A DNA stretch of 64,000 bases from Formosa haliotis (lineage in GTDB: Bacteria > Bacteroidota > Bacteroidia > Flavobacteriales > Flavobacteriaceae): contig NZ_BDEL01000001.1 in the NCBI RefSeq assembly GCF_001685485.1, positions 310,001-374,000 of the forward strand. Direction: 5' to 3'. The notes beneath the pieces were generated by a model. The model did not search any database. It saw nothing but the letters and a program-made list of their open reading frames with translations, and was not told where the DNA came from. The translations under genes and the position numbers were made by a program. Shown here piece after piece: positions 14,528 to 33,476 of the stretch; within the stretch, counting starts at the first letter, position 1, and each line of letters opens with the position of its first letter.

Positions 14528-15673
14528 ATGAAAAAGGTGTATTTAGACAGTGCGGCAACTACAAAAATAAGAACAGAAGTTATTGATGATATGACTCGTG
14601 TAATGCAAGAGGTTTACGGGAATCCGTCATCTTCCCATAGCTTTGGACGCTCTGCTAAAACTTTGGTGGAAACAGCTAGAAAAACGATTGCTAAGCGTTT
14701 AAATGTTACGACTTCTGAAATAGTTTTTACTTCGGGTGGGACAGAAGCCGATAATTTAGTGCTATTGAGCGCTGTTAAAGATTTAGGTGTTACTCGAATT
14801 ATTACTTCTAAAATAGAACATCACGCCGTATTACATACCGTAGACTACTTAGAAAAAGCTTATGGTGTTACAGTCGATTATGTAGACTTAGATAACAATG
14901 GAGAAGTAGTTATTTCGAGTTTAGAACAATTGTTATCGACTTCTGAAGCAAAAACACTCGTCAGTTTAATGCATGTAAATAACGAAATAGGAAATCTCCT
15001 AGATCTTAAACACGTTGCACAACTTTGTAAAGCACATAACGCCTATTTTCATAGCGATACCGTACAATCTGTTGGACATTTTGAATTAGATTTACAGGAC
15101 ATTCCTGTGGATTTTATCGCGGTTAGCGCTCATAAATTTCATGGTCCTAAAGGTGTTGGCTTTGCATTTATAAGAAAGCATTCTAATTTAAAACCGATGA
15201 TTCATGGAGGTGAGCAAGAACGTGGACTACGAGCTGGCACCGAAGCGGTACATAATATTGTGGGTTTAGAAACAGCATTTAAACTTGCTTATAAAAACTT
15301 AGAGAAGGAACGTGAATTTGTAAGCCAATTAAAAACATATTTCTGTAACGAAATTATGCAACTATCGCCACTAGTTAAGTTTAACGGGTTTTCTGGGAAT
15401 ATGGAAAAATCTACTTATACTTTAATAAATGTTTGTTTACCGATAGAGGCAAGGAAATCGGATATGTTGTTGTTTCAACTAGATTTAAAAGGGATAGCCT
15501 GTTCTAGAGGAAGTGCTTGCCAAAGCGGTGCTTTGAAAGGTTCTCATGTATTAAACGAAATTTTAAACGAAGCCGATAAAAGAAAAGTTTCTCTTCGGTT
15601 TTCGTTCAGTCATTTTAACACGTTTGAAGATGTAGATTATGCTATCGAGGTTTTAAAAGCATGCATAAACTAA
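14528..15673 (+). CDS. Cysteine desulfurase (NifS/IscS family, class V aminotransferase fold)
   Basis: 381 residues. Begins VYLDSAATTKIRTEV, as in IscS/NifS. The PLP lysine is in AVSAHKFHGPKGVG (about residue 205), the cofactor histidine is in SKIEHHAVLHT, and the catalytic cysteine lies in the mobile loop CSRGSACQSGA near residue 325. It removes sulfur from L-cysteine as a persulfide for Fe-S cluster and thio-cofactor synthesis. No isc or suf partner is adjacent, so its acceptor is unclear. It is nearer to the IscS/NifS type than to SufS. Strong promoter immediately upstream; the mRNA may be leaderless. Confidence 0.93.
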   Translation: MKKVYLDSAATTKIRTEVIDDMTRVMQEVYGNPSSSHSFGRSAKTLVETARKTIAKRLNVTTSEIVFTSGGTEADNLVLLSAVKDLGVTRIITSKIEHHAVLHTVDYLEKAYGVTVDYVDLDNNGEVVISSLEQLLSTSEAKTLVSLMHVNNEIGNLLDLKHVAQLCKAHNAYFHSDTVQSVGHFELDLQDIPVDFIAVSAHKFHGPKGVGFAFIRKHSNLKPMIHGGEQERGLRAGTEAVHNIVGLETAFKLAYKNLEKEREFVSQLKTYFCNEIMQLSPLVKFNGFSGNMEKSTYTLINVCLPIEARKSDMLLFQLDLKGIACSRGSACQSGALKGSHVLNEILNEADKRKVSLRFSFSHFNTFEDVDYAIEVLKACIN

Positions 15674-15685
15674 TAAATAGGTGTA

Positions 15686-16267
15686 CTAGCCATGAATGGT
15701 TTCGCTTTTGCTTAAATCTTTCATGATTTCGGCTTCGAATTCTAATAAATCTTGCCATTTTTTGTCTACCTCTTCGCGGTTTCCATATTGTCTTGCAAAA
15801 CCTAAAAACATCGTGTAATGATTGGCTTCGCTAACCATTAATTTTCTGTAAAACTCGGCGAGGTCTTTATCTTCTAGTTCTTCCGATAATAATCTAAAAC
15901 GCTCGCAACTTCTAGCTTCAATTAAAGCGGCATATAATAATCTGTGAACTAGTTGTGTGGTTCGGCTTCCGCCTTTAGGAAAGAAGGTAATTAATTTTAA
16001 AACATAATCATCTTTTCTATCGCGTCCTAATACCCAACCATTTTCTAAAATTTTGTCGTGTACCATTTTAAAATGACTAATTTCTTCCTTTACTAAAGCC
16101 ACCATTTCTTGAACTAATTCTGTGTATTCTGGAAAACTTACTATTAACGAGATCGCTGTGCTTGTTGCTTTTTGTTCACAATAGGCATGATCGGTTAAAA
16201 TGTCTTCAACATTTTTTTCTACAATATTTACCCATCTTGGGTCTGTTGGTAATTTTAGGCCTAGCAT
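15686..16267 (-). CDS. miaE: tRNA-(ms2io6A)-hydroxylase MiaE
   Basis: 193 residues from the ATG at 16267. The longer frame from 16309 overlaps the upstream lipoprotein gene, while MLGLKLPTDPRWVNIVEKN is the family start. Di-iron ferritin-like residues are visible as DHAYCEQKATS, EEISHFKMVH, EARSCERFRLL and VSEANHYTMF. MiaE hydroxylates the isopentenyl side chain of ms2i6A37 in tRNAs that read UNN codons, using oxygen. Third gene of the dnaX-lipoprotein-miaE operon, starting four bases after the preceding stop. Confidence 0.92.
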   Translation of the reverse strand: MLGLKLPTDPRWVNIVEKNVEDILTDHAYCEQKATSTAISLIVSFPEYTELVQEMVALVKEEISHFKMVHDKILENGWVLGRDRKDDYVLKLITFFPKGGSRTTQLVHRLLYAALIEARSCERFRLLSEELEDKDLAEFYRKLMVSEANHYTMFLGFARQYGNREEVDKKWQDLLEFEAEIMKDLSKSETIHG

Positions 16268-16271
16268 ACGA

Positions 16272-16859
16272 TTATATTTTAGAGTTAATTTCGGAAATTT
16301 GGTATTCACCAGTTTTTGAAATTATAAGTTGAAATGTTTTGTGTTGGGTTTGATTTTCAGGTTCTGCATATAAAATATTTAAAACAATAGACGAGTTAGT
16401 TGCGATATGCTTGTCGTCTAGCCAAATACTTTTTAAAATAAATGGTTTAAGCCATTCTGAAGCGCCTTCAATATTTTTATTTATAAACGATTTTGAAAGT
16501 GTTTGTTTGAAAACTGTGTTTTGTTCATTCTCCACAGAAATATCTGCCAACACATTTCTATAAAACGTTTTTATGTTTAAGCTATCTTTAATTTCAGTTT
16601 TAGAAATATTAGAATTCATATCTGTATAGGTTTTAATATGAATTTTAAATCCAGTACTTAATAGGGTATCGGTTATGGTTTCGGTATAGGTCTCTGGAAG
16701 GTAAACTATACGTTCAGAAAACGAAGATAACATGTTCTTTTCTGCCAAAATTTGCTTCGGATTTTTATGCATTTTACTACTCCCATCGCAACTTGAAAGC
16801 AGTGTAGCGATAGTTAAAATAATAACACTTAAAATCCTGTTTAATAGTGATTTACACAT
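16272..16859 (-). CDS. Uncharacterised lipoprotein between dnaX and miaE
   Basis: 195 residues. N-terminal lipoprotein signal peptide with hydrophobic core IILTIATLLSSC and the lipobox cysteine near residue 24. The rest is a soluble domain of mixed alpha/beta character with conserved-looking aromatic and charged positions (YRNVLADISVENEQ, ILYAEPENQTQHKTFQLIIS). No domain recognised. Its start overlaps the end of dnaX by eight bases, and miaE follows after four bases, so it is translated from the same message. The neighbours are DNA replication and tRNA modification genes and give no functional hint for an envelope lipoprotein. Confidence 0.8.
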   Translation of the reverse strand: MCKSLLNRILSVIILTIATLLSSCDGSSKMHKNPKQILAEKNMLSSFSERIVYLPETYTETITDTLLSTGFKIHIKTYTDMNSNISKTEIKDSLNIKTFYRNVLADISVENEQNTVFKQTLSKSFINKNIEGASEWLKPFILKSIWLDDKHIATNSSIVLNILYAEPENQTQHKTFQLIISKTGEYQISEINSKI

Positions 16860-18582
16860 CTAAATCGAAACTTTTTCTTAAGAGTTCTAGACTTGGGTTT
16901 TTCTCGCACATTTTTTGAAACTTTTCGCGCGTGGTATAAGCGTATTGTTTTTCATTTTCTTCGTTAATTTCGATGTCTAAATTGACATCAAAATTGTTTA
17001 AACGTTTACGAATAAAACTTAATAAGCCGAAAGAATTTCTCTCAACTTCAACCTTATTAGTTTCATTAGGATATACTACTTTAATTGTAGTTTTATCTAT
17101 TAATTTAGGAGTATCTATAGAAAGAATAGAGGCCAAATTATATTTTCCTTCGGTTTCAATTACACTAACATAATCTTTCCAAGCCGTCTGCATGTCTTCT
17201 TCAATGAAATCATCTGTAGGTAAATTAATTTCATCGTAAACAACTTCATTTTGTTTAATTTCATGCTCTTTTTTCGCACGAATACTTTTTAAAGATAGGC
17301 CAGAAGTACGTTTGCTTTCCTGCGATAATACAATTTTTGGAGATTTAGGTTCTTCTGCTTTAGCAAGAATTGTTTTGTTTTCTGCTGATACTGTAGAAGC
17401 GGTACTGGTCTCGTTTTGTTTATTATTAGCGACAGGTTCTGGTTTTGAAACCGGAATGGGCGTAATCCCTTTGGCTCTAAAATAAGATGGCGGAATTATG
17501 AACCGTTTACTATTTTTTTTTTCTCCATCGAAAATGATAGAGGCAAGCTGCATGAGGCAAAGTTCGACCAGGAGTCGCTGATTCTTACTGGATTTGTACT
17601 TTAAGTCGCAGTCGTTAGCGAGTTCAATTCCTTTTAATAAAAAGTCTTGAGGTGATTTATTAGCCTGTTCTAAATACTTTTGTTTGGTTTCTTCACCAAC
17701 TTCTAGAAGTTCTACGGTTTGCGGCGTTTTACATACCAGTAAATCTCTAAAGTGAGAGGCTAAACCAGCAATATAATGTTGTCCGTCGAAGCCTTTAGAT
17801 AACGTTGTATTAAATTGTAATAGGAGTTGCGGAATGTTATTTTCTAAAATTAAATCGGTGCTTGTAAAGAAGGTTTCGTAATCAAGAACGTTTAAGTTTT
17901 CGGTTACCGCTTGTCTCGTTAAATTTTTACCAGAAAAACTAACCACACGATCGAATATTGAAAGCGCATCACGCATAGCACCGTCTGCTTTTTGTGCAAT
18001 AATATGTAAAGCGTCGTCTTCGGCTTCTATACCCTGTTCTTTTGCAATATATTTTAAATAATCTTTAGCGTCTTTTACCGTAATACGTTTAAAATCAAAA
18101 ATCTGACAACGCGATAAAATGGTTGGTATAATTTTATGTTTTTCGGTAGTTGCTAAAATAAAAATACAATGCTTAGGAGGTTCTTCTAAGGTTTTTAAAA
18201 ACGCATTAAAAGCGGCTTGAGACAACATATGAACCTCGTCAATAATATAGACCTTATATTTCCCTATTTGTGGCGGAATTCTAACTTGATCGGTTAGGTT
18301 CCTAATATCGTCTACAGAATTGTTAGACGCCGCATCGAGTTCAAATACATTAAAGGCAAAATCTTCATCAGGATTTTCATTGCCTTGACTGTTAATCATT
18401 TTGGCCAATATACGGGCACAACTGGTTTTACCAACACCTCGAGGTCCTGTAAATAGTAAGGCTTGTGCCAAATGATTATTTTCTATAGCATTTAATAAAG
18501 TATTGGTAATAGCCTGCTGACCTACAACATCTTTAAATGTTTGAGGTCTATATTTACGAGCCGATACTATAAAATGTTCCAT
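16852..18582 (-). CDS. dnaX: DNA polymerase III subunit gamma/tau
   Basis: 576 residues. Clamp-loader ATPase: Walker A GPRGVGKTS at residues 46-54, Walker B IIDEVHMLS, sensor 1 FILATTEKHKI with SRCQ arginine finger. Domain III runs to about residue 350 and ends LLVELCLMQLA. A linker and tau-specific domain follow. The usual four-cysteine zinc module between Walker A and ELDAAS is replaced by a Cys-free, acidic stretch (NSQGNENPDEDFAFNVF). Codons 353-356 contain ten consecutive A bases (17513-17522 on the complement). Losing or gaining one A leads to a stop within about seven codons, a candidate slippage site for a gamma form. First gene of an operon with a lipoprotein gene and miaE. Confidence 0.97.
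   Translation of the reverse strand: MEHFIVSARKYRPQTFKDVVGQQAITNTLLNAIENNHLAQALLFTGPRGVGKTSCARILAKMINSQGNENPDEDFAFNVFELDAASNNSVDDIRNLTDQVRIPPQIGKYKVYIIDEVHMLSQAAFNAFLKTLEEPPKHCIFILATTEKHKIIPTILSRCQIFDFKRITVKDAKDYLKYIAKEQGIEAEDDALHIIAQKADGAMRDALSIFDRVVSFSGKNLTRQAVTENLNVLDYETFFTSTDLILENNIPQLLLQFNTTLSKGFDGQHYIAGLASHFRDLLVCKTPQTVELLEVGEETKQKYLEQANKSPQDFLLKGIELANDCDLKYKSSKNQRLLVELCLMQLASIIFDGEKKNSKRFIIPPSYFRAKGITPIPVSKPEPVANNKQNETSTASTVSAENKTILAKAEEPKSPKIVLSQESKRTSGLSLKSIRAKKEHEIKQNEVVYDEINLPTDDFIEEDMQTAWKDYVSVIETEGKYNLASILSIDTPKLIDKTTIKVVYPNETNKVEVERNSFGLLSFIRKRLNNFDVNLDIEINEENEKQYAYTTREKFQKMCEKNPSLELLRKSFDLDV
17513..17522 (-). promoter_or_regulatory. dnaX: Candidate programmed slippage/frameshift site in dnaX (A10)
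   Basis: On the coding strand the sequence is GGA GAA AAA AAA AAT AGT, ten A in a row directly after clamp-loader domain III. With nine A the frame reads to GGT TCA TAA. With eleven A it reads AAA TAG. Both give a protein of roughly 355-360 residues, the position expected for gamma. Similar A-run transcriptional slippage in dnaX is established for Thermus thermophilus. Confidence 0.6.
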
Positions 18583-18728: not shown

Positions 18729-19039
18729 TAAGTAGATTGCCTTATCGCTGTTCTATTTATAGAATGGAGGAAAGTCCGAACACCATAGTGCAACATAGTG
18801 GTTAATGGCCACCAGTCGTGAGATTAGGAAAAGTGCAACAGAAAGTATGTACAGGTAATGCTGTAGTGAAACCAGGTAAACTCTATGTGGTGCAATGCCA
18901 TGTATACCAATGCTTGAGGGCGGCACGCTCGATGTTGGAGGGTGGGCAGCTAAAGTGTGCTGGTAACAGTACACTCAGATAAATGATAGGGGCTTTTTTA
19001 TTTAAAAAAAGTACAGAATTCGGCTTATAGATTTACTTA
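18729..19039 (+). ncRNA. rnpB: RNase P RNA (class A, bacterial)
   Basis: The P1 helix is formed by AAGTAGAT (18730-18737) and ATTTACTT (19031-19038), with one G-U pair. The conserved 5' core GGAGGAAAGTCCGAACACC lies at about 18766-18784. Further conserved blocks are AACAGAAAGTATGTACAGG, GTGAAACCAGGTAAACTC, GAGGGCGGCACGCTCGATG (about 18915), CAGATAAATGATAGGGGC, and the 3' signature ACAGAATTCGGCTTAT before P1 closes. Length of about 310 bases is slightly short for type A but normal for Bacteroidota. It is the catalytic RNA that trims tRNA 5' leaders. Reading frames on either strand across it are spurious. Confidence 0.95.
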
Positions 19040-19046
19040 AATAAAC

Positions 19047-31138: not shown

Positions 31139-33007
31139 ATGTTAGATCAATCCAATTATACCGAAGATAATATACGTTCATTAGACTGGAAAGAACATAT
31201 TCGCATGCGACCAGGGATGTATATTGGTAAACTGGGAGATGGATCTTCTCCAGACGACGGTATTTATATCCTACTTAAAGAAGTGTTAGACAACTCTATA
31301 GACGAGTATGTTATGGGCGCTGGAAAAACTATAGAAATTTCTATCCAGGGTAGTAAAGTTATAGTTCGCGATTATGGTCGTGGAATTCCTTTAGGAAAAG
31401 TTGTAGATGTTGTATCTAAAATGAATACCGGAGGGAAGTACGATTCGCGAGCTTTTAAAAAATCGGTCGGATTAAATGGTGTAGGTACAAAAGCGGTAAA
31501 CGCGCTATCTTCATATTTTAGAGTAGAATCTTCTCGAGAAGGAAAATCTGCTTCGGCAGAATTTGAACAAGGAAATTTAACCGATCAAGAATTTCTAGAA
31601 GAAACGACGAGACGTAAAGGAACTAAGGTGTCTTTTGTGCCCGATGAGCTTATTTTTAAAAATTATAAGTTTAGAAATGAGTATGTCGAAAAAATGCTTA
31701 AAAATTATGTGTATTTAAATCCTGGTTTAACCATAGTTTTTAACGGGGAAAAGTATTATAGCGAGCATGGTTTAAAAGATTTATTGGCCGAAAATATCAA
31801 TGAAAATGATATGGTGTATCCAATAATTCACTTAAAGGGAGATGATATAGAAGTCGCTTTAACACACAGTAAAACACAGTATTCCGAAGAATATCATTCT
31901 TTTGTAAACGGTCAGAACACAACTCAGGGGGGTACTCATTTAGCAGCGTTTAGAGAAGCCTTGGTAAAAACACTTCGTGAGTTTTATGGTAAAAATTACG
32001 ATGCTTCAGATGTTAGAAAATCTGTGGTATCTGCCATTGCAATAAAGGTAATGGAGCCTGTATTTGAGAGTCAGACTAAAACAAAATTAGGATCTACAGA
32101 TATGGGTGGCGATTTGCCAACGGTGCGTACCTATGTAAATGATTTTGTTAAAACATATTTAGATAATTTTCTTCATAAGAATCCAGATACTGCCGATAAA
32201 ATTCAGCGTAAAATTCTTCAGGCAGAGCGTGAGCGTAAAGAATTGTCTGGAATTAGAAAGCTTGCAAAAGATCGAGCCAAAAAAGCAAGTCTTCATAATA
32301 AAAAATTACGCGATTGCCGCGTACATTTTGGAGATATTAAAAACGAACGCAATTTAGAATCCACCTTGTTTATTACCGAGGGAGATTCTGCATCGGGAAG
32401 TATTACCAAATCACGCGATGTAAATACTCAAGCTGTTTTTAGTTTAAAAGGAAAGCCTTTAAATTGTTATGGTTTAAGTAAGAAAATTGTTTACGAAAAC
32501 GAAGAATTTAACTTGCTACAAGCGGCATTAAATATAGAGGAGTCCATGGAAGATTTACGATATAACAATGTCGTAATTGCCACAGATGCCGATGTAGATG
32601 GTATGCACATTAGACTGTTGCTTATAACATTCTTTTTGCAATTTTTCCCGGAAATTATAAAAGAAGGGCATTTGTATATTTTGCAAACTCCGCTATTTCG
32701 GGTGCGAAACAAAAAGAAAACCATTTACTGCTATACAGATCAAGAGCGTGTTAATGCTATAGATGAATTGAAGCCAAAACCTGAAATTACGCGATTTAAA
32801 GGGTTAGGTGAAATTTCTCCAGATGAGTTTAAACATTTTATTGGCGATAATATTAGATTAGAACCGATAATGTTAGATAAAGACATGTCTATAGAAGAGT
32901 TGTTGGAATTCTATATGGGTAAAAATACACCTACACGTCAGAAATTTATTATTAATAATTTAAAAGTTGAAATAGATTTAGTAGCCGATAAAAATGAGAA
33001 CGGATAA
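31139..33007 (+). CDS. parE: DNA topoisomerase IV subunit B
   Basis: 622 residues. GHKL ATPase motifs: [32 protein letters not shown] with the Mg-binding Asn, DYGRGIPLG, and [15 protein letters not shown]. The TOPRIM domain has [10 protein letters not shown] (about residue 413) and the metal-binding [10 protein letters not shown]. Length fits ParE rather than the longer GyrB. With ParC it decatenates replicated chromosomes. It overlaps the next gene by 14 bases, and parC follows, so all three form one operon. Confidence 0.95.
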
Positions 33008-33476
33008 CGGAAAGGTAAAAAATATTATAATTTCGATCTATTTCATTTTAGTCGTGATTGCTATAATTATGGCTACTGTTTTTAGTGCTTTTAGTCATTT
33101 AACAGATAATGCAGAATTAACTTTCGTAATAATTGTTTTTGTTTTTTTGGGGTTGTTTTTAGCTGTATATTTAATAGCAAAATATTTTGAATACGATAGC
33201 GACGGGGTACAAGTTATAGTTTTAAATAAAGGGCTTTTCTTTTCAGATAAATTTAAATATAGAACACACGAAATTGAATTTAAAAAAGAAGAATTAATCG
33301 GTTATAAATTCCGTAATTATATCTTTTATAGAAGCTTAACTCTATTTATTAAAAGTGAAAATAAAGGTCCTATAAAAGAGCGATTCAATATTACTCTAGT
33401 GAATTATAGAAAGCGAAAATACATTAGACAGTCGCTAAGTAAAATGGTAAAAAAAAATATATCAAATAAAGTATAA
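32994..33476 (+). CDS. Small membrane protein between parE and parC
   Basis: 160 residues. Two hydrophobic helices (about residues 10-30 and 41-62) followed by a basic beta-rich soluble part ([20 protein letters not shown] and [16 protein letters not shown]) resembling a small PH-like or bPH domain. The start overlaps parE by 14 bases and the stop is six bases before parC, so it is embedded in the topoisomerase IV operon. Function unknown. I recall small membrane proteins at this position in related flavobacteria. The segment GTAAAAAAAAATATA near its C-terminus has nine A in a row. Confidence 0.8.

Follow-up and report, generated by a model that had tools for sequence, protein, structure and literature searches.

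A run of ten adenines in dnaX of Formosa haliotis as a probable RNA polymerase slippage site, and its changing reading frame among Bacteroidota

The dnaX gene of Formosa haliotis contains ten consecutive A behind the region coding for the clamp-loader core, and it is probable, judging from the comparison of sequences, that this run is a programmed slippage site at which RNA polymerase gives rise to both tau and gamma. The run, the stops behind it, the conservation of both, the biased codons and the many relatives in which tau cannot be joined without a slip are observed directly. The polymerase, and not the ribosome, would be the slipping machine, and both proteins are presumably made and used. 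Coordinates refer to the whole 64,000-nucleotide stretch of DNA that was analysed, called here the window.

The full tau frame of dnaX (16852..18582, minus strand) encodes 576 amino acids. A profile search of this open reading frame identified it as DnaX: the match to NF011531 reached 699.9 bits against a cut-off of 685, and TIGR02397, the model of the N-terminal part of DnaX, matched residues 6-346, also above its cut-off. The domain III model PF12169 matched residues 222-348 with 21.9 bits, which is under its cut-off of 24.4, and solved clamp-loader structures matched residues 5-275. From these models and structures, the clamp-loader core common to tau and the inferred gamma was placed at residues 1-348 (17539..18582, minus strand). 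The A10 run (17513..17522, minus strand; T10 on the plus strand) covers residues 354-357. Since the N-terminal model ends at residue 346, this candidate slippage site lies just behind the core. The coding strand at the run reads GGA GAA AAA AAA AAT AGT, with the word GGAG (17523..17526, minus strand) immediately 5' of it. When one A is added, the frame becomes GAA AAA AAA AAA TAG; the TAG (17510..17512, minus strand), a stop that is conserved in relatives, follows the run at a distance of 0 nt and ends a gamma of 357 amino acids. When one A is removed, the frame becomes GAA AAA AAA ATA GTA AAC GGT TCA TAA, and the TAA (17496..17498, minus strand), which overlaps the Ile-Ile codons ATA ATT and stands 14 nt behind the run, ends a product of 361 amino acids. 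Residues 358-576 (16855..17511, minus strand) are unique to tau, as read from the open frame. The sequence-only reading had described ten A just after clamp-loader domain III, a TAG at once with one A more and a stop after about five codons with one fewer, a tau of 576 residues and a truncated form of about 355-360. All of this was borne out by the models, which end at 346 and 348, and by the three frames.

In the mechanism that we propose, RNA polymerase would slip on A10/T10 and produce dnaX mRNAs with varied numbers of A. Transcripts with 10 or 10+3n A would be translated into tau, the full clamp-loader subunit of 576 residues, in which the C-terminal part is included. Transcripts with 11 or 9 A would lead the ribosome to the TAG or TAA just behind the run, and would give gamma (357 or 361 residues), that is, the clamp-loader core alone.

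We read the corresponding site in related genomes. The dnaX gene was obtained from 6 of 6 genomes of the window's genus, from 58 of 60 genomes of the family sample (all 58 were read) and from 7 of 7 genomes of a genus designated g30. In the phylum sample 116 of 118 genomes matched, and 90 of them were read (30 came with loci, 60 were hand-picked across families), leaving 26 unread. In the genus g20, 18 of 22 genomes matched and all were read; in the genus g60, 100 of 101 matched and 30 were read at the DNA level. The GTDB contig sample consisted of the best 80 of 594 stretches. After the exclusion of duplicates (L198, L303), a fragment (L010) and the pattern loci (L162-L191), 283 loci were analysed, the run being searched for in the 220 nt downstream of the codon that matches residue 334 in the alignment. 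The loci were divided into those with tau in frame (T), those with the tau part in a frame that requires an additional A (G1) or the loss of one A (G2), and those with no run (N). Because these classes were set by open frames of more than 300 nt, it is partly a matter of definition that the other frames contain a stop at all; how close the stop lies to the run is not. Relatives with at least 66% N-terminal identity to the window are called near. All counts are of related genomes and not of independent events.

A run of A9-A13 was present at the site in 228 of the 283 related loci (147 T, 75 G1 and 6 G2), with A9 in 25, A10 in 175, A11 in 24, and A12 and A13 in two each. In the window's family it was found in 106 of 124 loci, and all of the other 18 belong to g20. 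The check put forward by the sequence-only reading, whether Flavobacteriaceae keep an A run of at least nine where synonymous codons would allow its loss, was thus passed. A10 was found in 6 of 6 genomes of the window's genus and in 27 of 29 newly read species of g60. The synonymous-codon comparisons in relatives show that the run is kept beyond the demands of the protein and of codon usage. A run of at least nine A is kept in 147 of 147 T genes, against 58.4 expected under each gene's own synonymous codon usage, a null that is conditional on the T class, in which the run is already there, and that is applied to loci which are not independent. Outside the site, these 147 genes hold a single run of this length in 257,466 nt. 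Twenty-three run-bearing loci have a GC content of at least 50%, the highest being 67%. Counted along the window's DnaX, the run of distant relatives moves between about residues 349 and 384, and it encodes varying peptides (EKKN, EKKK, LKKK, KKKT, VKKN and others). Since the peptide and the place vary while the run stays, it is the nucleotide run, and not a peptide, that is conserved. The synonymous-codon nulls led us to reject the idea that constraint on the protein alone explains the run.

Neither a run nor a split of the g20 type was found in 37 of the 283 loci, so that parts of the phylum manage without the slip site. These N loci comprise 26 of the 61 loci from other taxonomic classes, a single one of the 16 from the same class, and 10 among the best 80 (out of 594) GTDB contigs; they include Bacteroides-like and other Bacteroidales. 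Two of them have a run beyond the 220-nt zone (A10 in L097, A9 in L090). In the Bacteroides-like loci L081, L104, L106 and L121, no A run stands behind the core; inspection by eye revealed GGGG CGT AGC at that place in three of the four, where the -1 frame would give TAG. In L127 (Bacteroidales contig CAMZFW010000113.1), an in-frame TAG stands just behind the core and homology continues in the same frame, which could be read-through, an unusual code or an error.

Stops stand close behind the run more often than expected from the same genes. In the frame of T genes reached by one more A, a stop occurs within 9 nt in 74 of 75 near relatives (25.0 expected) and in 61 of 72 far ones (19.9 expected). 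In the frame reached by one A fewer, a stop occurs within 18 nt in 70 of 75 near (29.1 expected) and 61 of 72 far relatives (24.4 expected). In near T genes, a stop within 9 nt is rarer in this second frame than expected (3 of 75 vs 17.8), the stop coming at about 14 nt. This stop is held by codon choice. In near relatives, the TAA is formed with the final A of the codon that opens an Ile-Ile-Pro-like motif; this codon ends in A in 56 of the 57 genes bearing the motif, and in 50 of them it is ATA, a codon used for 436 of 1980 Ile elsewhere in the same genes. All G1 genes, 45 of 45 near (16.7 expected) and 30 of 30 far ones (9.5 expected), have the gamma stop within 18 nt of the run; a stop in the third frame falls within this distance in 44 of 45 near (22.8 expected) and 23 of 30 far ones (12.1 expected).

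It turned out that 81 of the 228 run-bearing loci change frame exactly at the run: 75 need one more A, and 6 need one fewer. In these loci a slip is therefore needed to make tau, unless the two halves are made separately. Their C-terminal frame is open for at least 300 nt by the definition of the class, and in most loci, among those fetched by the time of the alignments, it aligns with the tau-only part of the window's DnaX, the counterpart of which thus lies in another frame. Together with the retention of the run in the family, this frame change at the run supports the slippage interpretation, as far as sequence comparison goes. Changes between the T and split states, with g20 counted as split, numbered 33 on the FastTree tree and 17 when branches with support under 95 were collapsed. 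Switching occurs inside single genera too: g30 (n = 7) contains 4 T and 3 G1 loci, and the 29 newly read loci of g60 comprise 6 T and 23 G1. The G2 locus L069 carries A9 in a Flavobacterium, and its class differs only by nine A in place of ten; this may be a sequencing or strain difference.

The genus g20, which belongs to the window's family, is split without a run. None of its 18 loci (L158, L302, L304-L319) has an A run at the site, and in all 18 the gene is split: one added base, equivalent to a ribosomal -1 shift, would lead into the frame of the tau part. A Lys codon (AAG in 10, AAA in 8) stands right before the in-frame stop (TAA in 17, TAG in 1). In nearly all of these loci, an ATG in the C-terminal frame lies 40 nt ahead of the stop, and the junction TTA|TG occurs in 15 of 15 motif-matched g20 loci vs 30 of 108 others. 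The run is gone from g20, while both the frame of gamma length and the open C-terminal frame persist; a ribosomal shift at the Lys-stop site, or else initiation at an internal start, may have taken the place of the slip site.

The run could in principle be a phase-variable tract at the DNA level, or a hot spot of indels or sequencing errors, with the split copies being errors or pseudogenes. Homopolymers do mutate and are misread, and L069 may be such a case. However, the length of the run is held in g60, where 23 of 29 loci share the same split state, the split C-terminal frames stay open and mostly align with the tau part, and g20 is split throughout with no run at all. We therefore consider this explanation extremely improbable. 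It is also very improbable that the split halves are separate proteins made from an internal start, and that the run in the window has no role beyond its lysines. The ATG and the TTA|TG junction of g20 would suit such proteins, and some ATG, GTG or TTG stands at or before +60 in 22 of the 81 run-bearing split loci; but 76 of the 81 have no ATG near the junction in the C-terminal frame, which makes internal initiation unlikely for most of these genes, and lysines cannot explain codon-level selection on the run and the stops.

A rival of more weight, though still an unlikely one, is a -1 ribosomal frameshift of the E. coli dnaX type on A_AAA_AAA, perhaps aided by GGAG, that would give gamma at the TAG or would act jointly with polymerase slippage. 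The heptamer A_AAA_AAA lies within the window's run, as it does in any run of at least nine A, with TAG next to it in the -1 frame. The direction needed by 75 of the 81 split loci is the one that a -1 shift also gives. In near relatives, the Gly codon before the run is GGA in 93 of 103 cases vs 488 of 1330 (37%) elsewhere, and this preference makes GGAG adjoin the run; a Shine-Dalgarno-like word lies within 8 nt in 102 of 124 near loci, vs 50.9 expected under the synonymous null. The adjoining GGAG could be a ribosomal signal. The usual spacing of a Shine-Dalgarno-like stimulator of -1 frameshifting is about 10 nt, and such words at 5-20 nt upstream were not enriched (near, 1 of 124 with 11.0 expected; far, 12 of 104 with 10.2 expected). 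The word next to the run exceeds the synonymous null only a little in far relatives (27 of 104 vs 18.7). No RNA structure above background was found downstream of the run, either over 227 sites (mean z -0.23, vs -0.24 for 454 control windows) or in the window by itself (z -0.77, with an equally good fold in 44 of 200 shuffles). For a ribosomal shift seven A would suffice, yet no locus outside g20 has A8 at the site. The runs occur in all three codon phases, six loci need the opposite direction, and the stop in the frame with one A fewer is kept though a -1 shift never enters that frame. On the ribosomal side, PMC5009743 also refers to an unpublished candidate from a Chlorobium, and among the split genes reported in PMC3711429 are Chlorobium ones with A8 and A7. 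On balance, RNA polymerase slippage is likely to fit the sequence patterns better than ribosomal frameshifting.

If polymerase slippage is extended to Bacteroidota, taken as broadly as in the genome collection used, an old and widespread slip site would supply both tau and gamma, no matter which of the two the gene encodes in frame. Since the output of slippage would yield both products either way, the templated frame would be free to drift near-neutrally and flip, 17-33 times, while run length and stops are held. One genus of the family would have lost the run, and a ribosomal shift at the Lys codon or an internal start would have taken over, so that the mechanism was replaced and the two-part arrangement kept. 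We find this broader reading neither favoured nor disfavoured.

Among known systems, the closest is Thermus thermophilus. Thermus-type slippage yields mRNAs with a varying number of A, and tau and gamma are present in the cell at about 1:1. As in Thermus dnaX, tau is encoded in a single frame, the coding strand has a run of at least nine A, close stops stand in both other frames, and gamma would be expected from mRNAs with an altered number of A. Unlike Thermus, the window comes from a different phylum, has A10 in place of A9, and has GGAG adjoining the run. The transcriptional slippage in Thermus was reported by Larsen et al. (2000), as summarised in PMC1088944 and in PMC5009743. In the portion devoted to dnaX, Antonov et al. 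(2013; PMC3711429) list 17 split dnaX genes from 12 genera and propose slippage; poly-A is present in 12 of the genes, and in nine it is A10. The 81 split loci found here are of that kind, with poly-A at the frame change, and some of the A10 cases in that portion may be relatives of the loci analysed here. The window gene differs from them in being one open frame, with tau not divided between two frames. The in-frame majority of 147 loci, the flipping of states and the selected stops go beyond what that portion of the paper describes.

The E. coli dnaX heptamer is A_AAA_AAG. The pair of products (inferred here), the A-rich shift site and the adjoining stop in the -1 frame are shared with E. 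coli; the downstream stem-loop signal and the distant Shine-Dalgarno-like word are not, the run is longer, and both directions occur among relatives. The sections of PMC3711429 and PMC5009743 on E. coli attribute its shorter product to a -1 programmed ribosomal frameshift. A search of the open PMC literature found no paper on in-frame dnaX runs in Bacteroidota or Flavobacteriaceae or on their flipping. Slippage in Thermus dnaX and split dnaX genes are already published; what is notable here is the breadth, the flipping and the run-less split genus of 18 loci. The setting is wider and more fluid than in the published descriptions, as far as the parts of them cited here extend.

The role of the shorter DnaX form, and the need for it, have long been debated, according to the discussion of this form in PMC5009743. 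A two-product arrangement across much of a phylum, with either tau or gamma templated, argues that both matter. Natural experiments are offered by congeneric species whose templated frames are opposite, and by one genus whose mechanism seems to have changed. In automatic annotation, many dnaX genes of the phylum may be shortened or called pseudogenes.

The A10 of dnaX is more than a chance tract. A9 words are scarce in the window, with 4 overlapping matches at 3 sites vs 27.4 expected from dinucleotide shuffles. Of the 25 distinct A/T tracts of at least ten in the genome, 4 are well within an open frame of 90 codons or more, namely in a carbohydrate esterase, a 2TM-DHFR fusion, a doubtful frame of 94 codons and dnaX itself; another 4 are at the edge of such a frame. 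The fusion of a 2TM domain with dihydrofolate reductase has A11 in its linker (region of G000:C1:3223142; L296, 541-1446, minus strand), and A9-A11 stands within 75 nt before the reductase in 12 of 30 fetched relatives (L349-L378), fused or unfused. This linker run is a second slippage candidate on sequence grounds, far less conserved than the run of dnaX. A sialate-esterase gene whose product has a C-terminal secretion domain carries A11 close to its end (region of G000:C1:2643312; L293, 892-2157, minus strand). In the window itself, the open frame 32985-33473 carries a coding-sense A9 (33449-33457, plus strand) close to its 3' end.

Three neighbours of dnaX in the window were also recognised. 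An RNase P RNA of bacterial class A (18729-19043, plus strand; 205.1 bits) is divergent from dnaX and begins 147 nt past the start of that gene. A MiaE-type tRNA hydroxylase gene (15686-16309, minus strand) adjoins dnaX, and a class-V aminotransferase-fold protein is encoded in the same neighbourhood (14528-15673, plus strand).
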